From Actinomycetota bacterium (GTDB taxonomy: Bacteria > Actinomycetota > Actinomycetes > Nanopelagicales > Nanopelagicaceae), in contig JAPLBE010000012.1 of assembly GCA_026392935.1 (NCBI GenBank), positions 1 through 64,000 of the forward strand: 64,000 nt of DNA. The letters run 5' to 3'. Below the pieces are notes generated by a model that saw only the letters and a list, made by a program, of their open reading frames with translations, ran no database searches and was not told where the DNA came from. Both the position numbers and the translations under genes were made by a program. Position 1 is the stretch's first letter. Every line of letters begins with the position of its first letter. This document shows, in pieces, positions 5,920 through 64,000 of the stretch.

Positions 5920-5929
5920 AATTATCCAT

Positions 5930-48528: not shown

Positions 48529-48858
48529 CTATTCAATGCGCCAGATTGGCCGCATAAACTCCATTGAGCCATTTGCAACATCGCCACCGGTTTCCATGAG
48601 TGGCGTAATGATTTTGGACCACTCAGTATTGATTTCACTCTTTGAGAGATATTCATTCATCTTCTCGACACTTTCGACTTCGAAATATCCAACAACCATT
48701 CGATTATTTGGACCCCCGATATATCCGGTGTAATTGTGCATCCCAGCTGCTTGGCATTCTGCGATTATTGAAGGCCAGAGATTCTCTGGGCTGTGGGCTT
48801 TTTCGTATGCCTCTTGGCAGCCTTCTTTAATCCATTGTAAAAAGACAACTCGCTCCAT
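48529..48858 (-). CDS. rhaM: L-rhamnose mutarotase family protein
   Basis: This 109-residue protein of the RhaM/DUF718 family interconverts sugar anomers before catabolism. The family pattern is visible: EAYEKAHSPENLWPSI (His and Trp-Pro), then GMHNYTGYIGGPNNRMVVGY, and the WSKII..M block. It is the last gene of the six-gene minus operon and precedes its terminator. The rhamnulokinase and rhamnose-type importer nearby support rhamnose, but related 6-deoxy sugars are also accepted in the family. Confidence 0.88.
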   Translation of the reverse strand: MERVVFLQWIKEGCQEAYEKAHSPENLWPSIIAECQAAGMHNYTGYIGGPNNRMVVGYFEVESVEKMNEYLSKSEINTEWSKIITPLMETGGDVANGSMEFMRPIWRIE

Positions 48859-48886
48859 TTATATCTCCATTTCCTTCAGTATTTTC

Positions 48887-50089
48887 CTATATTTCTTTCC
48901 ACTGATCATCGACTACCACTAACTGCGAAGCAACTTCCTGATTCAGTTCCACTCCAAGTCCTGGTTTTTTCGAAATTAAAAGATATCCATCTTTTGCCTC
49001 TGGGTATCCTGTAAAAAGACTCCAGAAGAGTTCGTTACCAGTATCTGGCAATACATTTGGGAAGTACTCAACCACCGGACATACTGCTGGACTTTGAGAG
49101 AAAACGATTGCAGTGTTGTGTGCTTCATTTGAATGCGGATACACGGGAAGTCCAGCTGTCTCTGCAAGTGCACAAATCTTTCGTGCTTCAGTTAAGCCCC
49201 CTGCACGGTTAAAATCTGGTTGCAAGATATCGGCGGCAGATTTCTTGATTAACTCTTCGAAATCCCATTTTGTATAACTATGTTCTCCATGACTCCATCT
49301 TTGTCCGGGAGTGGTCTTGCGTAATTCGGCGTAGCAATCTACAAGTTGTGGCATGAGCGCCTCTTCAATCCAGGACAAGTTGAATTCACGTAGGCGCTTG
49401 TACATCTCCATCGCGTAGCCGTAATCCCAGCCCATGTATGCATCAGCTGCAAGTTCAACATCAGGACCTACTGCATTTCGGACTGCACGCACCAACTCAA
49501 CATTGCGCCGCATGCCTTCATAACCATCACGAGGCCCAAAGCCAAAACGTTGCTTTAATCGGGTAAATCCCTGCGCTGTGTAGCCTCGCGCCTCATCGGC
49601 GAGTTCATCTAGATCTTCCATTGCATAAAGCCGGCTTACATAACAAGGAACTTTTGTTTGAACATTGCCGCCTAAAAGTTCTGTTACGGGAACACCGAGC
49701 TCTTTCGCATGCGCATCCCACATTGCAATATCTATTGCAGAGAGAGCAGAAACTGCGGGACCACTTCTACCGAATCGAATCAAAGTTCGATAGATACGTT
49801 GCCAATTACCCTCATGGTTCTCAATGTCTTGGCCCTTAAGGAGGTCCACCACATACATATCAATAATGCTCTTTGCGGCGCCATTAAATGCTCCAGCAGT
49901 GGCTGTTCCGATTACACCTTTTTCAGTCTCGATTTCTACAACTGTGCAAAAGCCCGGACCGAACCAGCCGCTTTCTTTTGTATGAAAGTCTTCAAAATCA
50001 GAGGTGTTTGTAATCAAATTTCGACGAAGCGTGGATGGTGCTTGCGAAAAACCAATTACTCTCGTTCTGATTCTCGTGATTTTACTCAT
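48887..50089 (-). CDS. enolase-superfamily sugar acid dehydratase, L-rhamnonate dehydratase-like
   Basis: This 400-residue protein of the mandelate racemase group likely dehydrates a 6-deoxyaldonate to a 2-keto-3-deoxy acid. Metal ligands are the Asp of ELAADAYMGWDYG, the Glu of SWIEEALMPQ and the Glu of RWSHGEHSYTKWD. ILQPDFNRAGGLTEA and the catalytic-type His in PVYPHSNEAHN follow. The order and spacing, and the KPGLGVELN end, match E. coli L-rhamnonate dehydratase. Related L-fuconate or other dehydratases are alternatives. Gap to rhaM: 28 bp. Confidence 0.85.
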   Translation of the reverse strand: MSKITRIRTRVIGFSQAPSTLRRNLITNTSDFEDFHTKESGWFGPGFCTVVEIETEKGVIGTATAGAFNGAAKSIIDMYVVDLLKGQDIENHEGNWQRIYRTLIRFGRSGPAVSALSAIDIAMWDAHAKELGVPVTELLGGNVQTKVPCYVSRLYAMEDLDELADEARGYTAQGFTRLKQRFGFGPRDGYEGMRRNVELVRAVRNAVGPDVELAADAYMGWDYGYAMEMYKRLREFNLSWIEEALMPQLVDCYAELRKTTPGQRWSHGEHSYTKWDFEELIKKSAADILQPDFNRAGGLTEARKICALAETAGLPVYPHSNEAHNTAIVFSQSPAVCPVVEYFPNVLPDTGNELFWSLFTGYPEAKDGYLLISKKPGLGVELNQEVASQLVVVDDQWKEI

Positions 50090-50107
50090 TTGATTTCCCC
50101 GATCTTT

Positions 50108-51175
50108 TCATTGGTTTTTCACTTTTACAATGCTGCTTGTTGCAGCAGACTCGTATGCAGCCTCTAAGAATTCAACTGCCCACGCAGCCTGTAGTCCAGG
50201 CGCTAAATTTGTTTTTGCTTTTCCGGTAATCAAATCAACTAGGTGACGTGACGGTTCAAGAGCTGGATAGGTGTCACCGACATCTTTGCCAGCTATCTCA
50301 TACTGATGACCATTATCGTTACGAACTAGAAGCTGACCATCTCGCATGTCATGCAAGATATAGCCCTTAGTTCCGTAATACCTGAATTCCTGTTGATGCT
50401 TATCGCCATCGCGTAAATTTCCAGTTGAACCCATGTTTCCGATTGTGTTCCCCTCGCAGGTAAATGCCATGGCATCGATTAGGTCAACATTTAGATCGCG
50501 ATTTTCCATAAATGCTGCAACCTGGGTGGCTCGTTGGTTTATCGCATAGAGAATCATTCCGATCGCATGCGAAACTTGAGTTTGACCTTGACCTCCACCT
50601 GCAAGTTTTGGATCTGAAAAGGTCAGTGGATCGGGGCCGGTAATCGCCCACTTAAATATCCCCTTATACAACTCAGGAACGCCGCGGTAATAAGCCTCAG
50701 CCATGCTTGCAAACAATCCATTTACTAGAAGAATTTCACCAATCTCATCATTATCTAAAGCACGTTTCAGTGCTTTGGCGGCATTGGTATGTTGAAAGGT
50801 ATAGCCAACCGTCAGATGAATTGATTTCTGCTCCGCTAATTTAACTAACTCATGGGCATCGGCTGCAATCGTCGTAAATGGTTTTTCAACCATAACATGG
50901 ACACCATTTTCGATTAACTCTTTTGCTACTGGGTGATGCAGAGCAGATGGAGTTGCAACAATTGCTCCATCAATCTGTATCTCACCGAGAGCTTCTGTAA
51001 CAGTTGCGAAACCAGCTGGAATCTCAAACATCTCTTCAGCTTTTCTACGTTTTTCAACATTTGGATCAACGAGTGCAACTAGTTCACAATCTTCATACTT
51101 TTTTAGAGACGGGATATGGAACTCGGTTGACCACCAACCTGTGCCAACAACTGCAATTCTTGGCTTCTCTGACAC
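50108..51175 (-). CDS. Gfo/Idh/MocA family oxidoreductase
   Basis: This NAD(P)-dependent sugar dehydrogenase-type protein has 355 residues. The Rossmann motif is IAVVGTGWWSTEFHIPSL and the family EKP motif is HVMVEKPFTT, followed by TVGYTFQHTN. It could oxidise a sugar at C1 or another carbon. The stop lies 18 bp before the dehydratase gene, and the start shares one base with the DapA-type gene stop. The exact reaction is not deducible from motifs. Confidence 0.85.
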   Translation of the reverse strand: MSEKPRIAVVGTGWWSTEFHIPSLKKYEDCELVALVDPNVEKRRKAEEMFEIPAGFATVTEALGEIQIDGAIVATPSALHHPVAKELIENGVHVMVEKPFTTIAADAHELVKLAEQKSIHLTVGYTFQHTNAAKALKRALDNDEIGEILLVNGLFASMAEAYYRGVPELYKGIFKWAITGPDPLTFSDPKLAGGGQGQTQVSHAIGMILYAINQRATQVAAFMENRDLNVDLIDAMAFTCEGNTIGNMGSTGNLRDGDKHQQEFRYYGTKGYILHDMRDGQLLVRNDNGHQYEIAGKDVGDTYPALEPSRHLVDLITGKAKTNLAPGLQAAWAVEFLEAAYESAATSSIVKVKNQ

Positions 51176-52080
51176 TAGACCTTCACTCCTTCCAGCTCTT
51201 TGAGCCCGATTTGAGAAAGCAAGAGATTCAGATAAGCAATCCGCTCAGAACTAATTGGAATATGCGGTTCTCGGCAATGTGACGTTGTGAATATCTTCAT
51301 CCGTGTTAAAAGTAGCTTTTGAATTTCAATAAATGTGTCTAGGCTTGTTAACTGGAAAGTAAGTAACGGCAAAATCATCTCGTATAAAGTTCTTGCATTT
51401 CTAATCTCTCCGGAATGAAACAATTCATTTATCTGAACAAAAATTCCCGGAAGACTGCAACCGGGCATAAATCCATCGATTCCAGAAGTTAACTCTTCCA
51501 TGAGATGAATTGCACCGTATCCAGAAATAATCTGGAAGCCCAAAGGCTTAAGTAGCTTGGCCTTATCGCCAATAGGTGGTGACTCAAGTTTGATGTGATT
51601 AACATTTGGTTGCTCATTGATAATGCGCGAAAGAAGTGAAACCGGAAGCGGGACTCCAGTCCAAGCTGGCGCATCTTGAATTATCACCGGAATAGTTACT
51701 GCCGAACCAACCGCCTTGAAATAAGAAAGAACATTTGCCTCATCGGGTTTTACGAACGTAGGCGGATAGAGCATCAGTGCACTTGCTCCCAGTTTTTCAG
51801 CCTCGATACTTCTTGCGACAGCGGCCTGAGTGCCACTGTGCTCGGTTCCGACAATTACAGGAACCCTAGAATCCACGGCAGAAATAACTTTTTTAAGGAT
51901 TGTAATCCGCTCGATGTCATTAAGTTTGTAGAGTTCACTTGCGAGCCCGAAAATCACTACACCGTCTGCTTTACTTGTGATGCAATGCTCAACAAGCCGT
52001 GGAATCGAATCTAGATCGATGCTTCCATCGTTCATAAACGGAACAGCAAGTACAGGCAGAACTCCATTAATCTCACGCAT
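51175..52080 (-). CDS. DapA-family aldolase/dehydratase, atypical active site
   Basis: This 301-residue class I aldolase-like protein has the TIM-barrel layout of dihydrodipicolinate synthase and N-acetylneuraminate lyase. The Schiff-base Lys is K164 in NVNHIKLESPP. The catalytic Tyr (E. coli Tyr133) is replaced by Gln135, and the carboxylate-binding Arg138 by Trp140 (segment QDAPAWTG). The GTTGE motif reads GLASE. So lysine synthesis is unlikely. A role in cleaving a 2-keto-3-deoxy sugar acid from the adjacent dehydratase is suggested by context, yet loss of the Arg makes an acid substrate uncertain. It overlaps the alcohol dehydrogenase gene by 8 bp. Confidence 0.82.
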   Translation of the reverse strand: MREINGVLPVLAVPFMNDGSIDLDSIPRLVEHCITSKADGVVIFGLASELYKLNDIERITILKKVISAVDSRVPVIVGTEHSGTQAAVARSIEAEKLGASALMLYPPTFVKPDEANVLSYFKAVGSAVTIPVIIQDAPAWTGVPLPVSLLSRIINEQPNVNHIKLESPPIGDKAKLLKPLGFQIISGYGAIHLMEELTSGIDGFMPGCSLPGIFVQINELFHSGEIRNARTLYEMILPLLTFQLTSLDTFIEIQKLLLTRMKIFTTSHCREPHIPISSERIAYLNLLLSQIGLKELEGVKV

Positions 52081-53092
52081 CTTGAGATATCACAATCCTG
52101 TTGTATTCAAAGCTACCTTGCAGTAACTTTTCAAATATCGCTGGAGCATCCTGCATTGGAACTACGTCAGAAATAAATGGCGCAACTAATTGTGAATTGA
52201 TTCCTAACCATGTGGCAGTCTCTGAGAATTCGTTGTTTGTGTAGCAGTAGCTGCCTAATACGCTCCGTTCATCAGCACTAACTTCATAGCTAGGAATGGA
52301 GAGATCAGGGGCATCCATACCTACTAGAACTATCCGAGCCGCAACGTTTGAATGTGTGAATGCATCTCTGAAGCTATGAGCGTTTCCAACAGCATCGAAG
52401 ACAACTGTTGGCTTGTCTTTACTTCTATAGTGATCTTCTAAATCAGCCGGTGAAATACTTGTGAATCCAAACTTTGAAATGTATTCCCGCTTCGATTCTG
52501 AAGGTTCACTGATTAGAAAGTCATTCACTCCAGTTCTAGCACAAGCAAATCCAATCGCCTGGCCAATGGGGCCACCACCAATAATCAAAACCCTATCTTT
52601 TTGAGTGACTTCTGCCCGAATTACCGCGTGGTAACCGACAGATAGAGGTTCAACAGCCGTAGCAAGTGTTGGTGAGATCTCATCACTAACAAAGGCTAAA
52701 TTACGAATAGGTACAATTACGTACTGAGCGAATGCTCCATCAACGCCTTTTGTGACACCAAGAACTTTTCTCGACGGACATAAATATTCCTTGCCACCTA
52801 AACAAAGTGCGCATTCGTGACAAGCAATGACTGGATTAATAACAACCCTTTTCCCGACCAAATCAGAGCTAGTGCCATCCGAGACTTTTTCAACGATTCC
52901 GCACGTTTCGTGACCCATAACTTGATCAGGAAATCTACGTCCCGTTGAGCCATTTGCACCGTGAATGTCTGAACCACAAATAGCCGTGGCAAGAATCTTG
53001 ATAATTGCATTTGTTCCAGTTAGCTCTGCGAGAGCGCGTTCCTTTACTTCAAATTCATTAAAACGTGTAAGTACTAAACTTTGGTGGCTCAT
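52073..53092 (-). CDS. zinc-dependent medium-chain alcohol dehydrogenase
   Basis: This 339-residue protein resembles sorbitol/threonine dehydrogenases. Catalytic zinc ligands are in AICGSDIHG (Cys) and MGHETCG (His, Glu). The four structural-zinc cysteines are in CHECALCLGGKEYLC. The NAD-binding loop is LIIGGGPIGQAIG. The ATG at 53092 lies four bases after the upstream stop; a longer reading overlaps that gene. Likely substrates are sugars, sugar acids or lactaldehyde produced by the pathway; the choice cannot be made from sequence. Confidence 0.88.
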   Translation of the reverse strand: MSHQSLVLTRFNEFEVKERALAELTGTNAIIKILATAICGSDIHGANGSTGRRFPDQVMGHETCGIVEKVSDGTSSDLVGKRVVINPVIACHECALCLGGKEYLCPSRKVLGVTKGVDGAFAQYVIVPIRNLAFVSDEISPTLATAVEPLSVGYHAVIRAEVTQKDRVLIIGGGPIGQAIGFACARTGVNDFLISEPSESKREYISKFGFTSISPADLEDHYRSKDKPTVVFDAVGNAHSFRDAFTHSNVAARIVLVGMDAPDLSIPSYEVSADERSVLGSYCYTNNEFSETATWLGINSQLVAPFISDVVPMQDAPAIFEKLLQGSFEYNRIVISQDA

Positions 53093-53096
53093 AATT

Positions 53097-54026
53097 CTAT
53101 TTTGCAGAATCCTTGTAGAAGTTAATGACATTCATTACTGTCTCTTTTCGCAATTCAGGTAAAGCTTGAATTGAGCACCAGGATGAGTGAGGTGTTAATA
53201 GTGCATTAGGTGAAGAACGTAAAATGTCGTCCATCGGGAGCGGCTCCACTTCATAAACATCTAAACCGGCACCTGCTAAAGCTCCACTCTTGAGTGCCTT
53301 ATCAACTGCCGACGGGTCAATTAATCCACCTCTACTCGTATTAATCAATATTGGTTTCTTGGTTGTAGAGGCCAAAAAAGCATCATTAATTAAATGCTTA
53401 TTTTCTGAAGTTAACGGGCAGTGGAGAGAGATGAGATCTGACTCTGAAGCTATCTGGGCAAGTTCAACACTCTCAAAACCATGACTTTTTGTATAAGGAT
53501 CGTAGGCAATAACTCTCGCACCAAAAGCGCTGAAATACTTTCCGACTAAAGACCCAATGCGCCCTGTTCCAACTAAGCCGATAGTTGATTCTGAAACTTT
53601 TTTTATTGAACTCGCGTGTGAAGCTGCAGCCCACTTGCCCGAACGCATCTCTGCATCCAGTTGAGGCAACTTGCGCCAAAGCGCTAAACCGAGGGAAATT
53701 GCGTGCGTAGCAACCTCTTCGGTGCAATAGTGAGGCACATTCTTTACTGGTATCCCCGCCTTTGCTGCGGCGTCTAGGTCAATCATGTCCATGCCTATAC
53801 CTATGCGTGAAATTATCTTGACATTACCCATAAGTGAAATAGCCTTGGATTTAACAGGAGCCCACTGGACAATCACGGCATCAGGATTGAAGTCAGATAA
53901 CGATTTGATAACGTCGTCTTCGTTTTTACACTGCGCAATTAGTACTTCAGCATTTAAATGTTTTTTCAATAATTCAATTTCCAGCGCTCCGTCGCCTAAA
54001 TCATTATCAGTAAATAACACTCTCAT
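53097..54026 (-). CDS. D-2-hydroxyacid dehydrogenase (CtBP/phosphoglycerate dehydrogenase-like)
   Basis: This 309-residue NAD-dependent dehydrogenase has the dinucleotide loop LVGTGRIGSLVGKYFSAFGA and the catalytic triad: Arg in INTSRGGLID, Glu in LDVYEVEPLP and His in LTPHSSW. It lacks an ACT domain, so it is not a standard SerA. As first gene of the minus operon it may reduce or oxidise a hydroxyacid product such as lactate, or another ketoacid of the pathway. AGAGGAG precedes the ATG at 54026. Confidence 0.88.
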   Translation of the reverse strand: MRVLFTDNDLGDGALEIELLKKHLNAEVLIAQCKNEDDVIKSLSDFNPDAVIVQWAPVKSKAISLMGNVKIISRIGIGMDMIDLDAAAKAGIPVKNVPHYCTEEVATHAISLGLALWRKLPQLDAEMRSGKWAAASHASSIKKVSESTIGLVGTGRIGSLVGKYFSAFGARVIAYDPYTKSHGFESVELAQIASESDLISLHCPLTSENKHLINDAFLASTTKKPILINTSRGGLIDPSAVDKALKSGALAGAGLDVYEVEPLPMDDILRSSPNALLTPHSSWCSIQALPELRKETVMNVINFYKDSAK

Positions 54027-54083
54027 AACTTAACTCCTCTGACAAGTAGGTAATTTGCTCAAAATAAATCTAGCACTTTTCCC

Positions 54084-54108
54084 ATAAAAGAAAAGATTTT
54101 TCTTTTAT
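54084..54108. promoter_or_regulatory. palindromic candidate operator between divergent sugar operons
   Basis: A perfect 10-bp inverted repeat, ATAAAAGAAA (54084-54093) and TTTCTTTTAT (54099-54108), with a 5-base centre lies in the middle of the 137-bp gap between the two sugar operons. The total 25-bp palindrome suits a dimeric regulator that could act on both directions. It is A/T-rich, so some chance of random origin remains. Confidence 0.45.
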
Positions 54109-54112
54109 ATCC

Positions 54113-54131
54113 TTGACAACTGTCATACAAG
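54113..54131 (+). promoter_or_regulatory. -35-like box and GntR/FadR-type operator-like site
   Basis: A consensus TTGACA (54113-54118) is followed at once by CTGTCATACAA, which fits the GTnnnAC core of FadR-subfamily GntR operators. A FadR-type regulator is encoded in the downstream operon (58855-59541). A clear -10 box at 17 bases is not visible, so the promoter call is weak; TCTAGT at 54139 is a poor candidate. The site lies 33-51 bases before the ABC ATPase start, well placed for repression. Confidence 0.35.
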
Positions 54132-54163
54132 TGAGTTTTCTAGTGCATTAAGTTCAGAAGAAA

Positions 54164-55699
54164 ATGGATCATCAAAGCGGATTGGGAGAAATTGTCATTA
54201 ACGTTTTGGAGTGTAAGTCGTTATCGAAGTGGTACGGCGAAGCCGCTGTTCTGAAGAACGTTGACTTTAACCTTGCCCAAAATGAGATACACGCAATTGT
54301 TGGCGAGAATGGTGCTGGAAAAAGTACACTCGTAAAGATTATTTCTGGGCTAGTTCCCGTAGATGTCGGAACGATCAAGTTTGAAGATAGCGACCGGACT
54401 TTTGCACACATTCGTGAGATTCAAAACTCAGGAGTCGCACTTATTCATCAAGAGCCTAGACTTTTTCCAGATTTATCTGTGCTAGAAAACGTGTGTGTTG
54501 ATTACCAAGTTCGCGACGGTAAAAGCAAGCGATTTAACTGGAAGAAAGCTGAAGAAGAGACAAAAGAGTTACTAGCTCAGCTCGGATGTTCATTTAGCGT
54601 GCACTCACCGGTCAAAGCGCTTTCTGTTGCAGATCAACAGATGGTTGATATGGTTTCAGCGCTTCGAAAGAAATTAAAGCTCTTGATTGTGGATGAACCA
54701 ACTGCCTCGCTCACCCCTTCAGAGGTTGCACGATTGTTTGCAACGATTCGCAAGTTAAACGCTAGCGGCGTCGCAATCATTTTTATCGGCCACCGGCTAG
54801 AAGAAGTTCTGGAGATATCTACTCGAATCACCGTGCTGAAAGATGGCGAAGTTGTTGCGGTTAAAAAGACTTCAGAGACCACTGAAGACGAGTTAATCAG
54901 GCTTATGGTGGGTCGAAATATTGCCGCCTCGAGCACAGATTCCAGATCTTCAAGCAAGGAAGTTTCACTGAAAGTCTCACATCTAGAGAGTCCAGGATTC
55001 GTAGCTGATGTTTCATTTGAGGTTAAGAAGGGTGAGATTCTTGGCATTGGAGGTCTCGTCGGTGCCGGTCGAAGTGAATTACTAGAAACTGTTTTTGGCC
55101 TACGTAAGAGAACTGCCGGTGAGGTTGTATCGAGCAATCACGGAAGCATTAAGACTGTTAAGCAGGCGATTTCAGCAAGAGTTGCCTTGGTGCCTGAAGA
55201 CCGCGCGCACAATGGATTGTTTTTGAATCGTTCCATCGGCGAGAATCTAGTGATAACAAATTTGAATCTGACATCCAAGGGCGGTAAACGTAATTTTGGA
55301 AAAGAGACACAGATTGCTAATGAACTTATTGAAAGATTCCGAGTAAAACTCTCCAGTGCATCGCAGCTTGTCCGCGAACTGAGCGGTGGAAATCAACAGA
55401 AAGTCAGTTTAGCCAAGTGGTTAAAGCAAGAAGTTGAAATTCTGTTGATTGATGAGCCTTCTCGCGGAGTTGACGTAGGCTCAAAGTCTGAAATTCACCA
55501 ATTCCTAAACAACTCAGCTAAAGATGGCATGGCTGTTGTAATGGTTAGTAGTGATATGCGTGAGCTCATCGAACTTTCGCATCGAATAATTGTCATGCGA
55601 AATGGTCGTATTGTGGGCGAACTTTCAGGATCGGAAATTTCTGAGGAATCAGTTCTGAGATTAGCTTCCGGACTTGCAACTGCAGGAAAGGCGAATTAA
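54164..55699 (+). CDS. rhaT: sugar ABC transporter ATP-binding protein, rhamnose/ribose type
   Basis: This 511-residue double ATPase energises a monosaccharide importer of the CUT2 class. The first domain has Walker A GENGAGKSTLVKIISG and the KALSVADQQMVDMV signature region; the second has the typical degenerate P-loop GGLVGAGRSELLE and signature ELSGGNQQKVSLAKWL with LLIDEPSRGVDVG. It is the first gene of the plus operon. The ATG at 54164 has AGAAG just upstream; a TTG 13 codons later would fit the family N-terminus equally well. Confidence 0.9.
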   Translation: MDHQSGLGEIVINVLECKSLSKWYGEAAVLKNVDFNLAQNEIHAIVGENGAGKSTLVKIISGLVPVDVGTIKFEDSDRTFAHIREIQNSGVALIHQEPRLFPDLSVLENVCVDYQVRDGKSKRFNWKKAEEETKELLAQLGCSFSVHSPVKALSVADQQMVDMVSALRKKLKLLIVDEPTASLTPSEVARLFATIRKLNASGVAIIFIGHRLEEVLEISTRITVLKDGEVVAVKKTSETTEDELIRLMVGRNIAASSTDSRSSSKEVSLKVSHLESPGFVADVSFEVKKGEILGIGGLVGAGRSELLETVFGLRKRTAGEVVSSNHGSIKTVKQAISARVALVPEDRAHNGLFLNRSIGENLVITNLNLTSKGGKRNFGKETQIANELIERFRVKLSSASQLVRELSGGNQQKVSLAKWLKQEVEILLIDEPSRGVDVGSKSEIHQFLNNSAKDGMAVVMVSSDMRELIELSHRIIVMRNGRIVGELSGSEISEESVLRLASGLATAGKAN

Positions 55700-55701
55700 T
55701 C

Positions 55702-56718: not shown

Positions 56719-57734
56719 TGTCAAAATTAACTAATTCCCCGATTCGATTTAAGGTTCCTGGTTATTTGATAGGTCCGATTTTGATTCTGGTTGCTGCCAT
56801 GATTTATGGCTCACTCGGATCAGAGTATTTCTTGCAACCAGCTTCAATCATCTTCAACACCGGTCGTTATATAGAGATAGGACTTCTCGCCCTTGCTCTC
56901 ACATTTGTGATTATCAATGGTGATATTGATCTATCCGTAGCCTCAACTCTTGCGGCAAGCGCTGGTGTGCTTGCGAAATTGTTTGCCAATGGGGTTCCAA
57001 TTTTCTGGTGCTGTGTCGCTTCAATATTCACTGGATTCGTACTTGGTCTAATTAATGGAATCATCGTTATCAAGTTTGGCCTACCAAGCTTGGTTGTAAC
57101 TCTTGCGACTCTGGCACTTTATCGCGGCTTAACCCAGGTAATGCTTGGCGATGGCGTAGTTGCAAATTATCCAGAAAGCTTTGTGGGTTTTGATCAGAGA
57201 TTACTTATTGGTGGAAACCCTGGCCTACCTGCGCCGCTTGCACTCTTTATTGTTGCTTCAATTATTTTTTACTACGTCCTGCATCGCTCTAATTATGGAC
57301 TTAAGAACATAATGTCAGGAAGTAATCCTTCTACTAGCAACTTCTCAGGAATTAGCGTTAATAATGTCCGACTAGTTGCATTTGCATTGAGCGGAACTGT
57401 TGCAGGAATTTGTGCAGTAATGATTACATCTCGTTTAGGATCAACTATCTCTAACGTGGGACTTGGCCTTGAGCTACTTGCAATCACCGCAGTGGTTCTT
57501 GGTGGAACAGATATCTTTGGAGGACGTGGAGCTGTTTCGGGCACTGTAGTTGCATTATTCGCAATTATGGCTGTTCGTGAAGCCCTGGTAATCCAAGATA
57601 TAAATGGTCAAGTTCAAGATGCCGCAATCGGATTATTACTAATCCTTACTGTTCTGGTACCGAGAATTCGATCATATTATGTTGATAAACGAAACAGAAA
57701 GAAGAGATTTAATGAGGCACAAGCAAAGGCCTAA
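56718..57734 (+). CDS. rhaQ: sugar ABC transporter permease, second subunit
   Basis: This second CUT2-class permease of 338 residues has the same hallmarks (LALTFVIINGDIDLSVAST and VLGGTDIFGGRGAVSGTVVA). It is homologous to but clearly distinct from the preceding permease, so the channel is probably a heterodimer. The ATG at 56718 overlaps the upstream stop by one base; a GTG one codon earlier is possible. The C-terminus ends in a basic stretch (KRNRKKRFNEAQAKA). Confidence 0.9.
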   Translation: MSKLTNSPIRFKVPGYLIGPILILVAAMIYGSLGSEYFLQPASIIFNTGRYIEIGLLALALTFVIINGDIDLSVASTLAASAGVLAKLFANGVPIFWCCVASIFTGFVLGLINGIIVIKFGLPSLVVTLATLALYRGLTQVMLGDGVVANYPESFVGFDQRLLIGGNPGLPAPLALFIVASIIFYYVLHRSNYGLKNIMSGSNPSTSNFSGISVNNVRLVAFALSGTVAGICAVMITSRLGSTISNVGLGLELLAITAVVLGGTDIFGGRGAVSGTVVALFAIMAVREALVIQDINGQVQDAAIGLLLILTVLVPRIRSYYVDKRNRKKRFNEAQAKA

Positions 57735-57760
57735 CGGTTTTTGCAAAGTGAATCATTAAT

Positions 57761-57787
57761 CAATAGGGATGAAGTACATCTCTATTG
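57761..57787 (+). other. intercistronic RNA hairpin before the binding-protein gene
   Basis: CAATAGGGATG (57761-57771) pairs with CATCTCTATTG (57777-57787) across a 5-base loop, giving an 11-bp stem with one G-U pair. No T run follows on the plus strand, so it is not a standard terminator. Hairpins at this position, between permease and binding-protein genes, often protect or process the mRNA and raise the yield of binding protein. Confidence 0.6.
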
Positions 57788-57809
57788 GAACACGGAATGA
57801 GGCTAGAGA

Positions 57810-58832
57810 ATGAATAAAAAGCATAAAGCGCTAGTTCCAGTCTTGGGTATGTCACTCATCCTGACTGGAGTAAGCGCTTCAATCATGGCAACATCAGCAT
57901 CAGCAGCTACTAAGTACAAGGTCACCTATATTCCTAAGAACCTAGGTAACCCTTATTTCGACGCAATCGTTGGCGGATTCAAGAAAGCCGGCAAAGGATT
58001 GAACATGACCGTAAAGGTTGTAGCACCAGCTCAAGCAGGCGCTACAGATCAGATTCCATTTATTGAAGCTGCAATTCAGCAAAAAGTTGATGCAATTGCA
58101 ATTTCTCCAAATGATGCAAACGCTCTATGTCCAACACTAAAGCGCGCAATGAAGCTTGGAATTGTTGTACTCACAGTCAATGGTGATACAACTGCTTCAT
58201 GTCGTCACGCATCAATCACGCCAGTTGATTTCAGCGTTCTAGGAAAGTACCTAGTTGACCAGACTGCCAGCGTTATTGATGGCAAGGGTGACTGGGCGTT
58301 CCTTTCTGCAACATCAACAGCTCCAGATCAGAATGCTTGGTTAGCAGGAGCTAAGACTTACATCGACGGAGGCGGACAACCTGGCCTAAAGCTAGTTGAT
58401 ACCGTTTACGGCGACGATGCACCAGAGAAGAGTGCTACTGAAGCACAAGCACTTCTCGCTAAGTATCCAAACCTAAAGGCAATCAACGCACCAACAACTG
58501 TTGGTATCGCTGCTGCTGCACAAGTACTTTCAACTTCACCTCTTAAGGGTAAGGTTCAAGTAACTGGTCTTGGTACTCCAAACCAAATGCGTCAATACGT
58601 GAAAGATGGAACAGTTAAGTCATTCTCACTTTGGGATCCAGGTCTACAAGGTCAGATTGCTGCAAACCTAATTGTTAGCATCAAAGCTAAGAACCTAAAG
58701 CCAAAAGCTGGAGTTTCATTCTCAATTAAGGGTGTTGGTCCAGGAACATGGAAGATGGGCAAAGATGCAGGAATTATTGCGGGACCTCCGCAAGAATTTA
58801 CTTCTGCAAACATCGATAAGTTCAACTTCTAA
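57810..58832 (+). CDS. rhaS: sugar ABC transporter substrate-binding protein, rhamnose type
   Basis: This 340-residue secreted binding protein has an N-terminal signal (VLGMSLILTGVSASIMATSA, cut near ASA-A) without a lipobox Cys. The mature start YKVTYIPKNLGNPYFDAIVG resembles RhaS rhamnose-binding proteins, as do PFIEAAIQQKVDAIAISPND and KSFSLWDPGLQGQIAANLIV. It follows the two permease genes after a 75-bp gap with a hairpin. Without a lipid anchor, a Gram-positive binding protein would have to stay bound by other means, possibly the uncleaved signal helix. Confidence 0.9.
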   Translation: MNKKHKALVPVLGMSLILTGVSASIMATSASAATKYKVTYIPKNLGNPYFDAIVGGFKKAGKGLNMTVKVVAPAQAGATDQIPFIEAAIQQKVDAIAISPNDANALCPTLKRAMKLGIVVLTVNGDTTASCRHASITPVDFSVLGKYLVDQTASVIDGKGDWAFLSATSTAPDQNAWLAGAKTYIDGGGQPGLKLVDTVYGDDAPEKSATEAQALLAKYPNLKAINAPTTVGIAAAAQVLSTSPLKGKVQVTGLGTPNQMRQYVKDGTVKSFSLWDPGLQGQIAANLIVSIKAKNLKPKAGVSFSIKGVGPGTWKMGKDAGIIAGPPQEFTSANIDKFNF

Positions 58833-58845
58833 AAAGTAAAGCGAA

Positions 58846-58966
58846 TAGCGCACAGTGTCACTCAGAAAACTCAGCGATCAAATCGTTGAAGATATTCTTC
58901 AGCAACTTGGCTCAGGCCAACTTGGTGAAAGGTCTACCGTTCCTTCTGAGATGACACTGTGCGCTA
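58846..58966. repeat. 15-bp perfect inverted repeat framing the GntR gene start
   Basis: TAGCGCACAGTGTCA at 58846-58860 and its exact complement TGACACTGTGCGCTA at 58952-58966 are separated by 91 bases. The left arm covers the GTG start codon of the regulator gene and the bases before it; the right arm lies in its coding sequence. Paired in mRNA, the arms would bury the start codon. As DNA they could be two operator copies in opposite orientation. Confidence 0.6.
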
Positions 58967-59541
58967 CTTACAATGTGACTCGCGGCGTAGTTCGCGAGGC
59001 GCTGAGAAGCTTGGATGCTAAAGGATTTATCAAAGTTAGCCAGGGCATGGGCACAACTATTGCTCCTATGCACGAGTGGAACGTTTTAGACCCAATATGG
59101 GTAGCACTTAATTCGGATAGTTCCTATTTTGATGATTTACAAACAACTCGTGAGATGTTTGAACCTGAAATTGCGGCACTCGCAGCCCGAAATGCGACTC
59201 CAGAAAATTTGAAAGAACTCCAAGATATTCTTGAAGAACAGAAGCTGTGTATCGGAGATGAAACCGATCTTGCAAATATTGATATCGCTTGGCATGCCGC
59301 ACTCTCGCGTGCAACACAAAATCCGATTTTAAATCAGTTGCATAATTCAATTGCCAATCTTGGAATTAAAGTTCGAATGGAAAACGCAAAACGTCCAAAT
59401 GCAGTGGAGCACGCAACATACTGGCATGATGAAATTATGCGAGCGGTTGTCAATGGTGACTCTGATTTGGCAAAGGCAGCGATGCGGATGCATTTGAGCC
59501 AAGTCCGAGCTGATCTTGAGATTGCGCTTCAAACAACCTAA
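58855..59541 (+). CDS. FadR-subfamily GntR transcriptional regulator
   Basis: This 228-residue regulator has an N-terminal winged helix-turn-helix (VPSEMTLCATYNVTRGVVRE, then LRSLDAKGFIKVSQGMGT) and a C-terminal FCD ligand domain with the typical metal-site residues (DIAWHAALSRATQN, and later HDEIMRAVVNGDSDLAKAAM). Such regulators respond to sugar acids or other carboxylates. The start is GTG at 58855, with no good Shine-Dalgarno, inside the left arm of a 15-bp inverted repeat. It probably controls the divergent sugar operons through a GTnnnAC-type site. Confidence 0.92.
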   Translation: MSLRKLSDQIVEDILQQLGSGQLGERSTVPSEMTLCATYNVTRGVVREALRSLDAKGFIKVSQGMGTTIAPMHEWNVLDPIWVALNSDSSYFDDLQTTREMFEPEIAALAARNATPENLKELQDILEEQKLCIGDETDLANIDIAWHAALSRATQNPILNQLHNSIANLGIKVRMENAKRPNAVEHATYWHDEIMRAVVNGDSDLAKAAMRMHLSQVRADLEIALQTT

Positions 59542-59570
59542 GTAACTCAAGTAGAGACCAGGAGTAAAAA

Positions 59571-60338
59571 ATGGAATATAAGTTAACGCTTCTATCGATG
59601 GGAAGTAGTGAAGTTCCCGGTCCAGAACTTTTCTGGATGGGACAGTGGGACAATTGGTTCCGTCTGCAATTCCAGGTTGGGCTAATTCAAGGAAATGGGA
59701 TTACCGCACTTGTAAACACTGGTCCAGCAAAAGATTTAGGGCCGATGAATGAAGGCTGGGTCGCTTTTCTTGGAGAGAGAGTTAAGTTTGCTCGCCAAGA
59801 AGGCGAATACATTCTTGATCAACTTGCAAAACATAACGTTAAGCCTGAGGACATTACACATATATTCTTGACTCCCCTACAGCTATATTCAGTAAGTAAT
59901 GTTCTTGAATTTCCAAATGCCAAGATTCATATTTCAAAGCGCGGTTGGATTCACTTTCACACTACTCACAAGCATCCGCATGATGGTCGTGATACGAGCC
60001 TTCCACCACACATCTTGGCTGAACTCGTCGGTAAATCTTGGGATCGCGTAGTTCTGCTTGAAGATGAAGAGACTATCGCGCCAGGACTTCGCACCTGGTG
60101 GTCGGGTGGACACCATCGCGCTTCTATCGCAGTAGAAGTTGATACGAAAGCTGGAACTGCGGTCCTGAGTGACACATTCTTTGTTATGGAAAATGTTGTG
60201 AACAACCATCCAATTGGTATTACCGAGAACATGTATGAATGCATGGATGCTCATGCCCGTGCTCTCAAGTCTCCAATTGTCATTCCTCTCTATGATCCAA
60301 AGAATTTCGATCGCTTCAAAAATGGTGTAGTTGCATGA
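59571..60338 (+). CDS. metallo-beta-lactamase-fold protein with degenerate metal motif
   Basis: This 255-residue protein has the general layout of the metallo-beta-lactamase fold: ALVNTGPAKDLGP, THIFLTPLQLYSVSN, SGGHHRASIAVEV and VLSDTFFVMENV. The zinc motif THxHxDH, expected after HIFL, reads TPLQLYS (101-107), so its His and Asp ligands are lost; H181 and D201 of later motifs remain. It may act without the usual binuclear metal site. In the operon it sits where a lactonase of an oxidative sugar pathway would be expected, but the missing ligands argue for caution. A GGAG precedes the ATG. Confidence 0.75.
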   Translation: MEYKLTLLSMGSSEVPGPELFWMGQWDNWFRLQFQVGLIQGNGITALVNTGPAKDLGPMNEGWVAFLGERVKFARQEGEYILDQLAKHNVKPEDITHIFLTPLQLYSVSNVLEFPNAKIHISKRGWIHFHTTHKHPHDGRDTSLPPHILAELVGKSWDRVVLLEDEETIAPGLRTWWSGGHHRASIAVEVDTKAGTAVLSDTFFVMENVVNNHPIGITENMYECMDAHARALKSPIVIPLYDPKNFDRFKNGVVA

Positions 60339-61117
60339 GAGAGAAATCATTTGCCACAAAGGGAGATGCAGTAATTGTCACAGGTGCTGCGGGAGGAATT
60401 GGTGCCGCTACCGTAGAAAATCTTGTAAATCAGGGAATTTTTGTATTCGCTGTCGATAAAAATTCCGAGGCACTATCAAAAATTTTGGCAGGAATTGACC
60501 CCAAAAATGTTCTCACTCAGGCAATTGCCGCTGATGTGACTAGTGAAAAAGACTGCCAATCAGTGTGTGAAGCTGCAAAAAGTAAGGGAATTCGAGTTAA
60601 GGGCCTAGTTAATAACGCGGCTGTTGGCGCATTTAACATGAGCGTTGAAAGTACCAGCTTTGAAGATTGGCAAAGAATTATCTCAATCAACCTAACTAGC
60701 CTTTATTTGATGGCCAAATATGCTCTCCCGCTGATTCGCAGCGCTGGCGGTGGCGCAGTAGTGAATATTTCATCTATACATGCATACGCCACATCTACAG
60801 GTGTTGCGCCATATGCTGCAGCAAAAGGAGGAGTTTTAGCTCTTACGAGAACAATGGCACTAGATCTTGCGCCAGATAACATTCGCGTTGTCTGCATTAT
60901 TCCTGGTGCTACAGATACTCCCATGCTTCGACAACATGCAGAACGTGAAGGAAAAACCTTGGCAGAGTTAGGGTTCCCTTCAAGTGAAAATGCAATCGGT
61001 CGCATAGCCCAGCCAGAAGAAGTTGCAGATGTCATCGCATTCGCTCTTTCACGAGGTGCAAGTTTTATTACTGGTTCATCGCTGATTCCCGATGGAGGAA
61101 TTCTTGCCAAGTTCTAA
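60335..61117 (+). CDS. short-chain dehydrogenase/reductase
   Basis: This classical SDR of 260 residues has the cofactor motif VTGAAGGIGAAT, NNAAVG, the catalytic Ser in VNISSIHAY and YAAAK as the Tyr-Lys pair. The C-terminal end is FITGSSLIPDGG. The Asp after strand beta-2 (FAVDKN) points to NAD rather than NADP. Members of this group include sugar 1-dehydrogenases for rhamnose and fucose, consistent with the operon. It overlaps both neighbours (4 bp and 26 bp). Confidence 0.88.
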   Translation: MREKSFATKGDAVIVTGAAGGIGAATVENLVNQGIFVFAVDKNSEALSKILAGIDPKNVLTQAIAADVTSEKDCQSVCEAAKSKGIRVKGLVNNAAVGAFNMSVESTSFEDWQRIISINLTSLYLMAKYALPLIRSAGGGAVVNISSIHAYATSTGVAPYAAAKGGVLALTRTMALDLAPDNIRVVCIIPGATDTPMLRQHAEREGKTLAELGFPSSENAIGRIAQPEEVADVIAFALSRGASFITGSSLIPDGGILAKF

Positions 61118-62114
61118 GGCGGTAGTAACTACTTCAGCAAATGAATGCGCTCTTACAGATGTTTCTGTTGGTGAGCTAGGGGAAAATCAAGTTGCTATAA
61201 GAACAATCAATTCTGGAGTGAGTACCGGAACTGACAAGTGGGTGATATCTGGTCGATTTGAATGGGGTAATTTTGCCTTCCCGCTAGTGCCTGGCTATCA
61301 ACGCAGTGGAATAGTTGAAGCAATTGGCTCTAAAGTGAAAAATGTAAGTATTGGTCAGCAAGTTTTTGCCACCGCAAGTATCAATTATTTGGATGCCACT
61401 GCAGGATGGGGTGCCCATACAAGTTATGGAATCTCTGAAGATTTCGAAGTTTTCGATGCCACAGGGATTCCACCAGCGCGTGCTTCATTTGGCGTAGTTG
61501 CACAAGTGGGTTTTAACGCTGCATCGCGCATAGTTGGAAATGCTGGCGATCGAATTTTGGTTATCGGAGATGGAGTAATTGGTGCGAGTGGGGCCTTGTG
61601 TGCGAAGGCTCGAGGTTTTGAACCGCTGCTGCTCGGCAGACATGATTCACGGTTAGAGAAGATTAAATCTCTAGGAATCAAGACCGCTAACTCCAAAATT
61701 GTGTCAAGAAAAGAGCTCTCAGACTTTGCACCGATTGCAGTGATTGACACCGTTCAGAGTCCCGATGCATTTGAACTTTACTACCGTGCATTGCCAGCAA
61801 CATGGGCAGCTGAAACCTTTGGAAATGAACGAACTGGAATAGGTCAGATTATTTTTAGTGGACATACTCCAGATGGCGCAAATACCTGGGCGGATATGGC
61901 TCATCTTCAAAAACAAGAGTTAACTGTGCACTTTGTTTCGGGCTGGGTATCTAGCCGCATTGTTCAGACCCTTGAATTGATGAGAACTGGTGCGCTGAGT
62001 TTAGAGAAGATTGCAACTGAATATTCAGCAGATGATGTGAGCATTGAAAAGCTATTTGGCAATATTGCTGCTGGAAAGAATCCTGATATCGCTGCCTACC
62101 TTACTTGGGCATAA
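61092..62114 (+). CDS. medium-chain dehydrogenase-like protein without zinc ligands
   Basis: This 340-residue medium-chain dehydrogenase/reductase resembles the BchC-like branch annotated as zinc-binding alcohol dehydrogenase. The catalytic zinc Cys position reads NSGVSTGTDKW and the GHE motif reads PGYQRSG; the four structural cysteines are absent. The cofactor loop ILVIGDGVIGASGALCAK is intact. Zinc-independent redox activity is likely. It overlaps the SDR gene by 26 bp, so the two are translationally linked, and overlaps the convergent rhaB by 14 bp. The substrate is unknown. Confidence 0.8.
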   Translation: MEEFLPSSKAVVTTSANECALTDVSVGELGENQVAIRTINSGVSTGTDKWVISGRFEWGNFAFPLVPGYQRSGIVEAIGSKVKNVSIGQQVFATASINYLDATAGWGAHTSYGISEDFEVFDATGIPPARASFGVVAQVGFNAASRIVGNAGDRILVIGDGVIGASGALCAKARGFEPLLLGRHDSRLEKIKSLGIKTANSKIVSRKELSDFAPIAVIDTVQSPDAFELYYRALPATWAAETFGNERTGIGQIIFSGHTPDGANTWADMAHLQKQELTVHFVSGWVSSRIVQTLELMRTGALSLEKIATEYSADDVSIEKLFGNIAAGKNPDIAAYLTWA

Positions 62115-63501
62115 ACTCTTCACTGATAAAGCTCTTTGCAATAAGCGATCTAGCCACCTGCAAGCTAGGGACAACGCCGGCGATAAGAGCTTGCACTGCG
62201 ATATTTCCAAATAGTGTGGCTTCAACGGGACCAGTTTTAACCTTTACGCCACAGGCATCTGCTGTTAACTGATTTAACAGTGAGATTTGTGATCCACCAC
62301 CAAGCACATGAATAGTAGAAATCTTCTTACCTGTAACTTCCTCAATTTCGGAAATAGTTCGCTTATAAGCAGCCGCTAAACTCCGCAAAATACAGATTGT
62401 GAACTCCCCCTTGGTGCGCGGCGGTGTGATTGCATTCTCTAGGCAATATGCCCGGATCCGCTCGAGCATTTCACCTGGCGACCTAAATCGTGGATCATTT
62501 GGATCGATAAGAGAATCAAATTCGAGATTTTTACTGGCCTCATCTACTAGCTGTGGAATCGACCATTCTTCACCTTCGATTCGCCAATTTCTCCGACACT
62601 CTTCAAGTAACCAGAGACCGGTAACATTTTTAAGAATGCGAACCGTGTTAGCGGCACCAAGTTCATTTGTAAGATTGGCAGCAAGCGCTTGCTTGGATGT
62701 AATCGGGGTATCACTTTCAATACCAACAAGGGACCAGGTCCCACTTGAAATATAAGCCTCTGTATCACGATTATCAAATGGAATACCCGCTACCGCACTT
62801 GCGGTGTCGTGGGAAGCAATTGCAACAATCTTGATTCCATCAAGTGCGCCAAACCCCTTGATGACACCGATCTCAGTACCTGGTTCGTGTAATTGTGTGA
62901 ATAACTCGGGGCGAAGGCCCGCAAGCTCGATTAATGAATAATCCCAATTTCGAGTTTTAACATCTAGGAGTTGAGTAGTTGATGCATTCGTTACTTCCGT
63001 CGAGATTACTCCCGTTAACTCAGCATTTAACAAATCAGGAATCAATAGGAATTTATCTGCCTCTAGATATGACTTGTCTTGCTTTGCTGCATACAACTGA
63101 TACAAAGTATTGAAGTTTAGGAATTGGATGCCGGTATCTTGATAAATCCGATCTTGCCCAAGCTTTGAAACCAGCTCCTTAAATGCCGGAAGCGTTCTTG
63201 GATCTCGGTAAGAGCGCACCTTTGAAATCAATTTATTATCATTATCGAGCAGTCCATAATCTACAGCCCAGGAATCAATGGCAAGCGAAGTTGGCTGGTC
63301 CTGAGCTAAGCATTTTTCAATACCAACCAAGACTTGTGAGGTTATAAGTTTCCAATCCCACAGCACAGCGCCTTCGGCATCTTCTACGATCTCATGCGAA
63401 AAGCGATGGACAATTTCCAACGCTATTTTCTCTTTTGTCACGCGCCCTATAGCCACGCGACCGCTGGTTGCCCCAAGATCAACTGCGATGAAATTTGCCA
63501 C
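62101..63501 (-). CDS. rhaB: rhamnulokinase
   Basis: This FGGY-family kinase of 466 residues phosphorylates L-rhamnulose at C1. The N-terminal ATPase motif is IAVDLGATSGRVAIGRV, followed by LAIDSWAVDYGLLD, VASHDTASAVAGIPF, YISSGTWSLVGIE and IHVLGGGSQISLLNQL, all typical of RhaB. It lies two bases after the aldolase/dehydrogenase gene. Its presence shows a phosphorylating rhamnose route. No rhamnose isomerase gene is seen before the right edge. Confidence 0.93.
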   Translation of the reverse strand: MANFIAVDLGATSGRVAIGRVTKEKIALEIVHRFSHEIVEDAEGAVLWDWKLITSQVLVGIEKCLAQDQPTSLAIDSWAVDYGLLDNDNKLISKVRSYRDPRTLPAFKELVSKLGQDRIYQDTGIQFLNFNTLYQLYAAKQDKSYLEADKFLLIPDLLNAELTGVISTEVTNASTTQLLDVKTRNWDYSLIELAGLRPELFTQLHEPGTEIGVIKGFGALDGIKIVAIASHDTASAVAGIPFDNRDTEAYISSGTWSLVGIESDTPITSKQALAANLTNELGAANTVRILKNVTGLWLLEECRRNWRIEGEEWSIPQLVDEASKNLEFDSLIDPNDPRFRSPGEMLERIRAYCLENAITPPRTKGEFTICILRSLAAAYKRTISEIEEVTGKKISTIHVLGGGSQISLLNQLTADACGVKVKTGPVEATLFGNIAVQALIAGVVPSLQVARSLIAKSFISEEFMPK

Positions 63502-63503
63502 AA

Positions 63504-64000
63504 TTACCTTAGAAATGCAGCTGCAACACCACCGTCAACTGGAATATGTAATCCAGTAGTCAGCGGTAAATCAGATGAGCAAAGCACAAACACTGCTGCT
63601 GCAATGTGGTCTGGAAGAACTTCTTTCTTCAAAATTGTACGTTGAGCGTAATACTCTCCAAGTTTCTCTTCTTCAACTCCATACACCGCTGCACGTTGAG
63701 CACCCCAACCACTGGCAAAGATTCCAGATCCTTTAACTACGCCATCTGGATTTACTCCATTAACGCGAATTCCATATGCGCCAAGTTCTGCAGCCAGAAG
63801 TCGAACCTGGTGAGCTTGATCGGCCTTCGTTGAACCATAAGCGAGATTGTTTGGCCCAGCAAAAACGGAATTCTTAGATGAAATATAAATTATGTCTCCG
63901 CCAATGTGTGCCGCGATCATTGCCTTAGCACTCTCTCTTGAGACCAAGAAAGAACCACGAGCCATAACATCATGCTGGATATCCCAGTCTTGTGTTGAGG
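63504..64000 (-). CDS. rhaD: bifunctional rhamnulose-1-phosphate aldolase/short-chain dehydrogenase, C-terminal part
   Basis: Only the last 165 or so residues are in the window; the frame stays open to base 64000 (WDIQHDVMARGSF continues upstream). They form the end of an SDR domain: IIYISSKNSVFAGPNNLAYG (Ser and Tyr), VNPDGVVKGSGIFASGWGAQ, RAAVYGVEEEKLGEYYAQRT and a final VDGGVAAAFLR. This matches the C-terminus of YuxG-type fusions, in which an N-terminal aldolase splits rhamnulose-1-phosphate and the SDR acts on lactaldehyde. The aldolase half lies outside, so that activity is inferred. The gene is directly upstream of rhaB. Confidence 0.85.
   Translation of the reverse strand, partial: STQDWDIQHDVMARGSFLVSRESAKAMIAAHIGGDIIYISSKNSVFAGPNNLAYGSTKADQAHQVRLLAAELGAYGIRVNGVNPDGVVKGSGIFASGWGAQRAAVYGVEEEKLGEYYAQRTILKKEVLPDHIAAAVFVLCSSDLPLTTGLHIPVDGGVAAAFLR

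Follow-up and report, generated by a model that had tools for sequence, protein, structure and literature searches.

An island of sugar catabolism genes lies at the end of a 64,000-nucleotide stretch of DNA (hereafter the window) from an Actinomycetota bacterium of the family Nanopelagicaceae (assembly GCA_026392935.1, contig JAPLBE010000012.1, positions 1 to 64,000). It is located between the rib operon (ribD at 47279-48277) and nrdJ, the gene of a B12-dependent ribonucleotide reductase, in a genome of 1,346,855 bases on 22 contigs. The island encodes a phosphorylating L-rhamnose route and, interleaved with it, a second arm of oxidoreductases and dehydratase-like enzymes. We tentatively read these as two routes for the sugar of a single importer, the second one being a variant of the non-phosphorylating kind that would act on L-rhamnose or one of its close stereo-analogues, a reading that we favor while holding it with somewhat less than even confidence. 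It builds on the observed gene set, its conservation, the separability of the arm and the active-site residues, from which we infer every activity, substrate and product named below.

In the proposed scheme, a RhaSTPQ-type importer would take up the sugar feeding both routes and a RhaM-like protein would interconvert its anomers. A short-chain dehydrogenase/reductase (SDR) may then oxidize C1 of the sugar to a lactone, which would open spontaneously or aided by a protein derived from the metallo-beta-lactamase (MBL) fold, whose metal site is replaced by a conserved Q/Y/HHR site. A RhamD-like enolase would form the 2-keto-3-deoxy acid, and an enzyme of the dihydrodipicolinate synthase (DHDPS) family would act on it via a Schiff base, presumably as a dehydratase more readily than as an aldolase. 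Dehydration of L-2-keto-3-deoxyrhamnonate, with loss of the C4 hydroxyl group and the C5 proton, would by our own derivation give 2,5-dioxohexanoate, which a Gfo/Idh oxidoreductase and a zinc-free medium-chain dehydrogenase/reductase (MDR2) could process.

Gene content of the island

All open reading frames named in a first-pass annotation of the window were found in place, and all belong to the broad families it had assigned. The features of the island are as follows.

48529-48858, minus strand: RhaM-like mutarotase of 109 amino acids (PF05336 56.9 bits, cut-off 23.4; TIGR02625 42.3, under 99.6)
48887-50089, minus strand: rhamnonate-dehydratase-like enolase (MR/MLE); top match NF011968 with 197 bits, under the cut-off of 393
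50108-51175, minus strand: Gfo/Idh/MocA oxidoreductase (PF01408), likewise encoded within the arm in G144, L033, L034, L035 and L037
51175-52080, minus strand: DHDPS/NAL-family enzyme whose active site is of the dehydratase type (Q135 with Tyr lost, K164, E166); top PDB matches 3fkk and 7c0c
52073-53131, minus strand: Zn-dependent MDR, RspB/L-idonate dehydrogenase-like, accessory (NF007489 148.6 bits, under the cut-off of 376; RspB 4ilk among the PDB matches)
53097-54026, minus strand: D-2-hydroxyacid dehydrogenase, accessory (PF02826)
54120-54130, minus strand: candidate GntR operator TTGTATGACAG in the divergent promoter between the 2-hydroxyacid dehydrogenase and RhaT genes (pattern TTGTNNGACAR)
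54164-55699, plus strand: RhaT-like ABC ATPase (profile search)
55702-56718, plus strand: RhaP-like permease (profile search)
56715-57734, plus strand: RhaQ-like permease (profile search)
57810-58832, plus strand: RhaS-like substrate-binding protein (TIGR02637 299.6 bits, under the cut-off of 342.25)
58855-59541, plus strand: GntR/FCD regulator (PF00392, PF07729)
59571-60338, plus strand: MBL-fold protein without metal motif (T101-P-L-Q-L-Y-S107; H181 H182 R183; Y241)
60335-61117, plus strand: SDR, candidate sugar 1-dehydrogenase (PF13561)
61092-62114, plus strand: BchC-like MDR2 without the usual catalytic Zn ligands, GYQ replacing GHE, which we take to be the usual ligand motif (TIGR01202 75.4 bits, under the cut-off)
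62101-63501, minus strand: rhamnulokinase RhaB (TIGR02627 497.5 bits, cut-off 527.95)
63504-64000, minus strand: 3' part of a RhaD/RhaEW fusion, the whole gene reaching window-equivalent 65555 (TIGR02632 995.9 bits, cut-off 567.75)
window-equivalent 65543-66709: RhaI (TIGR02635 621.6 bits, cut-off 531.35)

Beyond position 64000, the contig (locus L006) continues with the whole RhaD/SDR fusion, followed by RhaI and nrdJ. RhaI scores over the curated cut-off for L-rhamnose isomerase, and the fusion over that for a rhamnulose-1-phosphate aldolase joined to a lactaldehyde dehydrogenase. RhaB stays under the TIGR02627 cut-off and scores 443.2 bits against the rhamnulokinase profile NF007925 (cut-off 639); its best match to another kinase family reaches 146.8. 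With RhaI, this probable rhamnulokinase and the RhaEW fusion, the phosphorylating route is complete. The first-pass annotation had described such a complete route beside genes of an oxidative one, and both gene sets are indeed there; its aldolase, its ordinary lactonase and its necessary product dehydrogenases did not stand, as discussed below. Other RhaS proteins of the family also score under the TIGR02637 equivalog cut-off (312.4 and 269.5); since RhaS, RhaM and the enolase of the window lie under such cut-offs, we name them "like" only.

Conservation and separability of the second arm

Six copies of the island were compared, those of the window and of the genomes G144, G594, G548, G694 and G562. 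The importer, DHDPS-type and Gfo/Idh genes occur in all six as far as the contigs extend, and the enolase and the RhaM-like gene in every copy whose contig reaches them, with the RhaM-like gene downstream of the enolase in L033, L034, L035 and L037. GntR, MBL, SDR and MDR2 are present in 5/5 copies covering that side (window, G594, G144, G548, G562); in the metagenome-assembled genome (MAG) G694 the MBL protein was not found, and the SDR was not searched for there. As the SDR adjoins the MBL gene in all five genomes covering that place, the arm does not occur mostly without sugar dehydrogenases, the situation that the first-pass annotation had named as speaking against an oxidative route. G548 and G694 carry an extra SDR gene between the enolase and RhaM (L034 9234-10019; L035 5692-6468), which is absent from the window.

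Gene order is conserved in the relatives, and of 15 gene pairs compared between the window and G144, 12 show a ratio of nonsynonymous to synonymous substitution rates (dN/dS) of at most 0.12, while the remaining three have saturated synonymous sites at a dN of 0.11-0.16. The gene set is more than a chance assembly. The Zn-dependent MDR (52073) and the D-2-hydroxyacid dehydrogenase (53097), previously put forward as dehydrogenases needed for the products, appear to be accessory: two of the six copies, G594 (L033) and G562 (L082), lack both at the place between RhaT and the DHDPS-type gene, for which reason they were rejected as core genes. G594 keeps two fragments of the 2-hydroxyacid dehydrogenase at that place (28 residues at 75 % and 48 at 42 % identity; L033 2217-2393), probably the scar of a deletion and thus a sign of gene loss, and no trace of this gene was matched between RhaT and the DHDPS-type gene of G562.

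G562, which belongs to another genus, has the importer, GntR, MBL, SDR, MDR2, the DapA-like gene, Gfo, the enolase and RhaM, and its MDR2 ends 77 bases before nrdJ (L081). No RhaI was found in this 68 % complete MAG and in place of RhaB only a 24 % identical FGGY kinase, and no rhaIDB was found at the locus; RhaI and RhaB were not found in G694 either, a MAG of unstated completeness. The arm, importer and regulator can therefore exist without phosphorylating genes at the locus, and occurrence of the arm apart from rhaB, a comparison proposed along with the first annotation, is seen at the G562 locus.

RhaS behaves differently from its neighbors, as 31 % of its synonymous sites differ between the window and G144, against 60-76 % in the other 14 gene pairs; the gene seems to have been exchanged between genera more recently than the rest. 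In G562 the RhaS frame (L081 993-1999) is interrupted near residue 288, which may stem from misassembly.

Occurrence in another actinobacterial class

MBL relatives at E <= 1e-20 were found in 7 of 40 genomes of another class of the same phylum. In five of the seven (L040-L044) the MBL protein keeps HLHHDH, and its gene has an SDR gene and a RhamD-like enolase gene as immediate neighbors on its two sides. Three of the five have importer genes upstream, one of them showing only RhaS at a contig end, and the same three carry a RhaM-like gene. In two (L043, L044) the enolase is followed by a gene for a Tyr-type DHDPS protein, and RhaA lies downstream in two. The RhaS proteins of L040 and L043, the two tested, score 393.2 each and thus over the TIGR02637 cut-off. 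RhaA of L041 and L042 scores over NF002203 (584.1 and 609.9; cut-off 572) and just under TIGR01748 (530.1 and 564.5; cut-off 584.95). RhaB, RhaI and the RhaD aldolase domain had no match in the available stretches of L040-L044. This gene context ties the predicted SDR-MBL-enolase unit to L-rhamnose in a lineage distant from the window. Between the enolase and RhaA, L041 also carries two sulfoquinovose/L-arabinose-isomerase-like genes scoring far under the cut-off (5048-7787).

Active sites of the arm enzymes

In the enolase, the D216, E242 and E269 ligands and the D292-H319 dyad align with the corresponding residues of Escherichia coli RhmD, and a DAYMGW segment is present, while the DFH of GalD is not. 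By eye, its N-terminal loop resembles E. coli RhmD and haloarchaeal RhcD, unlike that of galactonate dehydratase or the Ruegeria-type group. The earlier assignment holds at the level of the broad MR/MLE family, and the ligands and dyad are of RhamD type.

The active site of the DHDPS-type protein is not of the type expected for the DapA-type aldolase it had been taken for. Its top solved relatives are the L-2-keto-3-deoxyarabonate (L-KDA) dehydratases 3fkk and 7c0c with 123 bits, against 102 for the aldolase YagE. According to a review, L-KDA dehydratase has Gln143 in place of the aldolase Tyr, forms its Schiff base on the conserved Lys171 and uses Glu173 and Glu200 as bases, Glu173 not being conserved in other family members (PMC9795676). 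Gln135, Lys164 and Glu166 of the window protein match this signature in the alignment, Gln135 replacing the catalytic Tyr of DHDPS-type 2-keto-3-deoxy acid aldolases. The same Gln/Lys/Glu set occurs in G144, G594, G548 and G694, at the distant-class locus L039, in Ruegeria (L020), in Pseudosulfitobacter (L022) and on an E. coli plasmid (L021), and Tyr is found instead in the DHDPS proteins of L043 and L044. Leaving the exact reaction aside, 51175-52080 more probably encodes a dehydratase-type than an aldolase-type enzyme. A tree of DHDPS-type proteins, in which long branches meet as they do in the enolase tree, did not place the window protein firmly, and a structure prediction from five alignment rows (predicted local distance difference test, pLDDT, of 55) was too poor to use.

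The protein at 59571-60338 had no Pfam or NCBIfam match; its matches in a protein search were a glyoxylase-type MBL protein (2.6e-5) and lactonases (0.4-0.9). In all five copies of the order, the HxHxDH positions hold P, Q, Y and S (101-107, TPLQLYS), and Tyr241 (LYD) replaces the last His; in the window protein, HHR stands at 181-183. An MBL fold lacking HxHxDH does not agree with the ordinary lactonase suggested before. Between the window and G144 only 2/255 residues of the protein differ, at 65 % differing synonymous sites (99.2 % amino acid and 85.0 % nucleotide identity). At 0.004, its dN/dS is the lowest among the 12 gene pairs for which a finite value was obtained, and its protein identity is the highest of all 15. 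Such extreme purifying selection argues that the MBL-fold protein is functional; catalysis without a metal would fit, as would a role in binding or in regulation. The remodeled site (TPxQxY, HHR, LYD) recurs in two distant-class proteins, L039 and L065. At L039 it stands next to a Gln-type DHDPS gene, with no RhaTPQS gene matched beside the MBL gene, and the 4.5 kb contig of L065 is too short to judge neighbors. Structure prediction of the MBL protein alone (pLDDT 32) was too poor to use. A literature search gave no paper on an MBL-type sugar lactonase of rhamnonolactone, and metal-independent MBL pseudoenzymes of this kind did not appear among the matches listed.

Probable co-regulation

In 4/4 copies rhaI is preceded by a palindrome, TTGTCnGACAA, and the pattern TTGTNNGACAR occurs once in the divergent promoter before RhaT in each of six loci. 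This is its only match in the window (54120-54130), and the single site in L006 precedes rhaI. Judged by its positions and its conservation, the motif is suggestive, and its binder is likely the GntR/FCD regulator of the island. As both promoters carry one GntR-type motif, the two routes are probably co-regulated.

Distribution

The island is rare yet common to genera of one order, next to the same flank. In the order, the MBL protein is found at E <= 1e-8 in 6/296 genomes, five of which share 93-100 % identity across three genera (G000, G594, G144, G548, G562). The sixth, G121 of the window's own genus (29 %), was rejected as a member of the group, having an intact HLHFDH site. A phylum sample contained some MBL match at E <= 0.001 in 30/396 genomes; besides the window's own match, six matches from E 1.8e-58 to 5.3e-40 all belong to one family of another class, and the rest are weak. 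Used as a query against genome contigs, the enolase matched six loci: five share 88-97 % identity, four of them in records titled Actinobacteria or Actinomycetota, and the sixth, at 22 %, is unrelated. L036 and L033 are identical to the contigs of G144 and G594, respectively, L034 has the same sequence as L079 of G548 where the two overlap, and L037 agrees with G562 by coordinates. The record L036 is titled Bifidobacterium breve although G144 belongs to the window's family.

RhaB occurs at E <= 1e-40 in 36/151 family genomes, and its neighborhood was inspected in 30 of these, all but G000, G144, G096, G114, G120 and G141. RhaD adjoins RhaB in 30/30 loci. Neither the MBL nor the DHDPS-type protein was matched in any of them (tblastn, 1e-3), an absence that is local as many contigs are short, and MDR2 gave a single weak match (29 %; tblastn). 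DHDPS-family paralogues exist in 149/151 family genomes; besides the window's own, an orthologue was found only in G144 (84 %; next 33 %). A rhamnose block lies near nrdJ in several other family genomes as well (L056, L071-L074), making this a recurrent site for rhamnose genes. Among the matches listed, plasmid-borne MBL relatives reach about 32 % identity, and most of them carry either the annotation AHL-lactonase family or none; at two such loci inspected, no annotated enolase adjoined.

Weighing the readings

Several observations weigh against two routes for L-rhamnose. The enolase, RhaM, RhaS and RhaB all miss NCBIfam equivalog cut-offs. The top solved relatives of the enolase (3stp, 3sqs, 3ssz; 263-266 bits) carry no firmer name than MR/MLE protein or putative galactonate dehydratase, structures named rhamnonate dehydratase reach 178 bits at best, and in the tree it forms its own long, deep branch not resolved from RhcD, RhmD and the Ruegeria-type group. 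It is only 37-39 % identical to the enolases of L040-L044, whose SDRs are only distantly like that of the window, and no PDB match of the window SDR at 1e-30 is named rhamnose dehydrogenase. The DHDPS-type protein has no counterpart of Glu200, the C5 base of the dehydratase; Glu200 is absent from L039 and L021 too, and the subgroup lacking it therefore extends beyond the island. The L039 enolase lacks DAYMGW and lies outside the RhamD-like rows of the tree. G562, the source of the arm without rhaIDB, is a MAG only 68 % complete. The promoter pattern was generalized after seeing the sites, with 1.21 chance matches expected in 64 kb, and the two matches in L006, which are the two strands of a single palindrome, were reached in 19 of 200 shuffled versions of that locus. 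What weakens the dehydration route most is that we know of no entry of 2,5-dioxohexanoate to central metabolism.

Queries with RhmA, RhcF, AraD1, SMP-30 and amidohydrolase-lactonases, one or two each, gave no match in the window and L006 together (80 kb; tblastn, 1e-3). The sole aldehyde dehydrogenase match there lies beside glutamine synthetase and is 25 % identical to the Ruegeria enzyme over 217 residues.

It is rather unlikely that the second arm serves another sugar or acid sharing the importer, such as L-lyxonate, L-mannonate or a pentonate. The enolase would then form L-KDA, which the DHDPS enzyme would dehydrate to 2-oxoglutarate semialdehyde, mirroring the route-2 pentose pathway. The closest solved DHDPS relatives being L-KDA dehydratases agrees with this, as do the scores of the window RhaS and RhaM under their cut-offs, the existence of the arm without rhaIDB and the Ruegeria locus L020, where a related enolase is accompanied by a DHDPS protein of the Gln/Lys/Glu type and by an NADP aldehyde dehydrogenase. 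The arm itself, however, holds no semialdehyde dehydrogenase, its DHDPS-type protein misses Glu200, and the distant-class SDR-MBL-enolase unit is accompanied by RhaS equivalogs or RhaA.

An ordinary non-phosphorylating route, in which the DHDPS protein despite its Tyr-to-Gln exchange cleaves L-2-keto-3-deoxyrhamnonate to pyruvate and L-lactaldehyde and the RhaW domain yields lactate, appears improbable to us. Its end products would be those of the phosphorylating route, two distant-class loci place a Tyr-type DHDPS protein after the enolase, and with no RhmA-type aldolase or FAH-type hydrolase matched in the 80 kb the cleaving enzyme would otherwise be missing. A Schiff-base L-2-keto-3-deoxyfuconate (L-KDF) aldolase is moreover already known from passages of PMC11199699. 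Yet the cleavage Tyr is Gln here, the Glu at Lys+2 is described in excerpts of PMC9795676 as unique to the dehydratase, and the G562 locus has no RhaEW. That the extra oxidoreductases trim a modified rhamnose (O-methyl or glycosidic) for the phosphorylating route is very improbable: several dehydrogenases in one island and DgpA glycoside oxidoreductases among the Gfo/Idh PDB matches are in its favor, but G562 retains the arm without rhaIDB at the locus, and this reading would explain neither the dehydratase nor the DHDPS-type protein.

We thus return to two routes for the importer's sugar. Its most novel form would be a new L-rhamnose route, in which a re-purposed class I aldolase dehydrates the keto-deoxy acid to 2,5-dioxohexanoate and a metal-replaced MBL fold handles the lactone, the remodeled pair recurring at L039; in this full form we regard the proposal as doubtful.

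Comparison with known systems

A genome of 1.35 Mb keeping two routes for apparently one sugar calls for an explanation. Should the two-route reading be true, a rare shared gene block would encode a non-phosphorylating rhamnose route outside the known groups with a new lower half, and the metal-less MBL-fold protein, among the most constrained of the island, would offer a test case for the re-use of a lost metal site. As rhaIDB accompanies the arm in some genomes and not in others, the arm is open to testing with each half expressed in a laboratory host. A search of open-licence papers found none on this island.

COG3836 aldolases belong to the HpcH family, and FucH to the DHDPS family. In the accessible parts of their 2013 survey, Rodionova et al. 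place the RhaEW fusion in Actinobacteria and report the non-phosphorylating L-rhamnose route only from a small number of proteobacteria (PMC3870299). Later work, as far as covered by excerpts of PMC10444878, includes archaea and SAR202, the latter with enolase-based L-rhamnose and L-fucose use and COG3836 aldolases. For L-fucose, passages of PMC11199699 describe FucH as an L-KDF aldolase with a Schiff-base lysine, which weakens the claim of the first-pass annotation that the enzyme set may be new as far as a DapA-type aldolase is concerned; with two proteins whose active sites are rebuilt, the second arm may degrade rhamnose by an undescribed route.

Compared with the phosphorylating pathway of RhaI, RhaB and RhaEW (PMC3870299), the island has a RhaI and a fusion that pass curated cut-offs and differs by the interleaved second arm, of which no MBL or DHDPS-type match was found in the 30 other family RhaB loci, many on short contigs. 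Like the LRA1-6 and haloarchaeal Rhc routes, it has a dehydrogenase, a RhamD-type dehydratase and a mutarotase-like protein; where these use an RhmA-type aldolase or RhcF-type hydrolase, neither of which was matched in the 80 kb, the island has a DHDPS-type enzyme and an MBL-derived protein. An MDR acting on L-2-keto-3-deoxyrhamnonate has been published for Sulfobacillus, a likeness by the title alone as cited in PMC10444878. As far as the excerpts of PMC11199699 describe it, the L-fucose pathway with FucH shares the roles of mutarotase, dehydrogenase, lactonase, dehydratase and Schiff-base enzyme, whereas the enolase-type dehydratase of the island is tied to rhamnose genes and its DHDPS-type protein lacks the aldolase Tyr. 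With the Azospirillum L-KDA dehydratase (3FKK/7C0C), finally, the island protein shares the Lys, the Gln in place of Tyr and the Glu at Lys+2; it lacks Glu200, as does the E. coli plasmid protein encoded beside an ilvD-type dehydratase, which places both in a wider subgroup.

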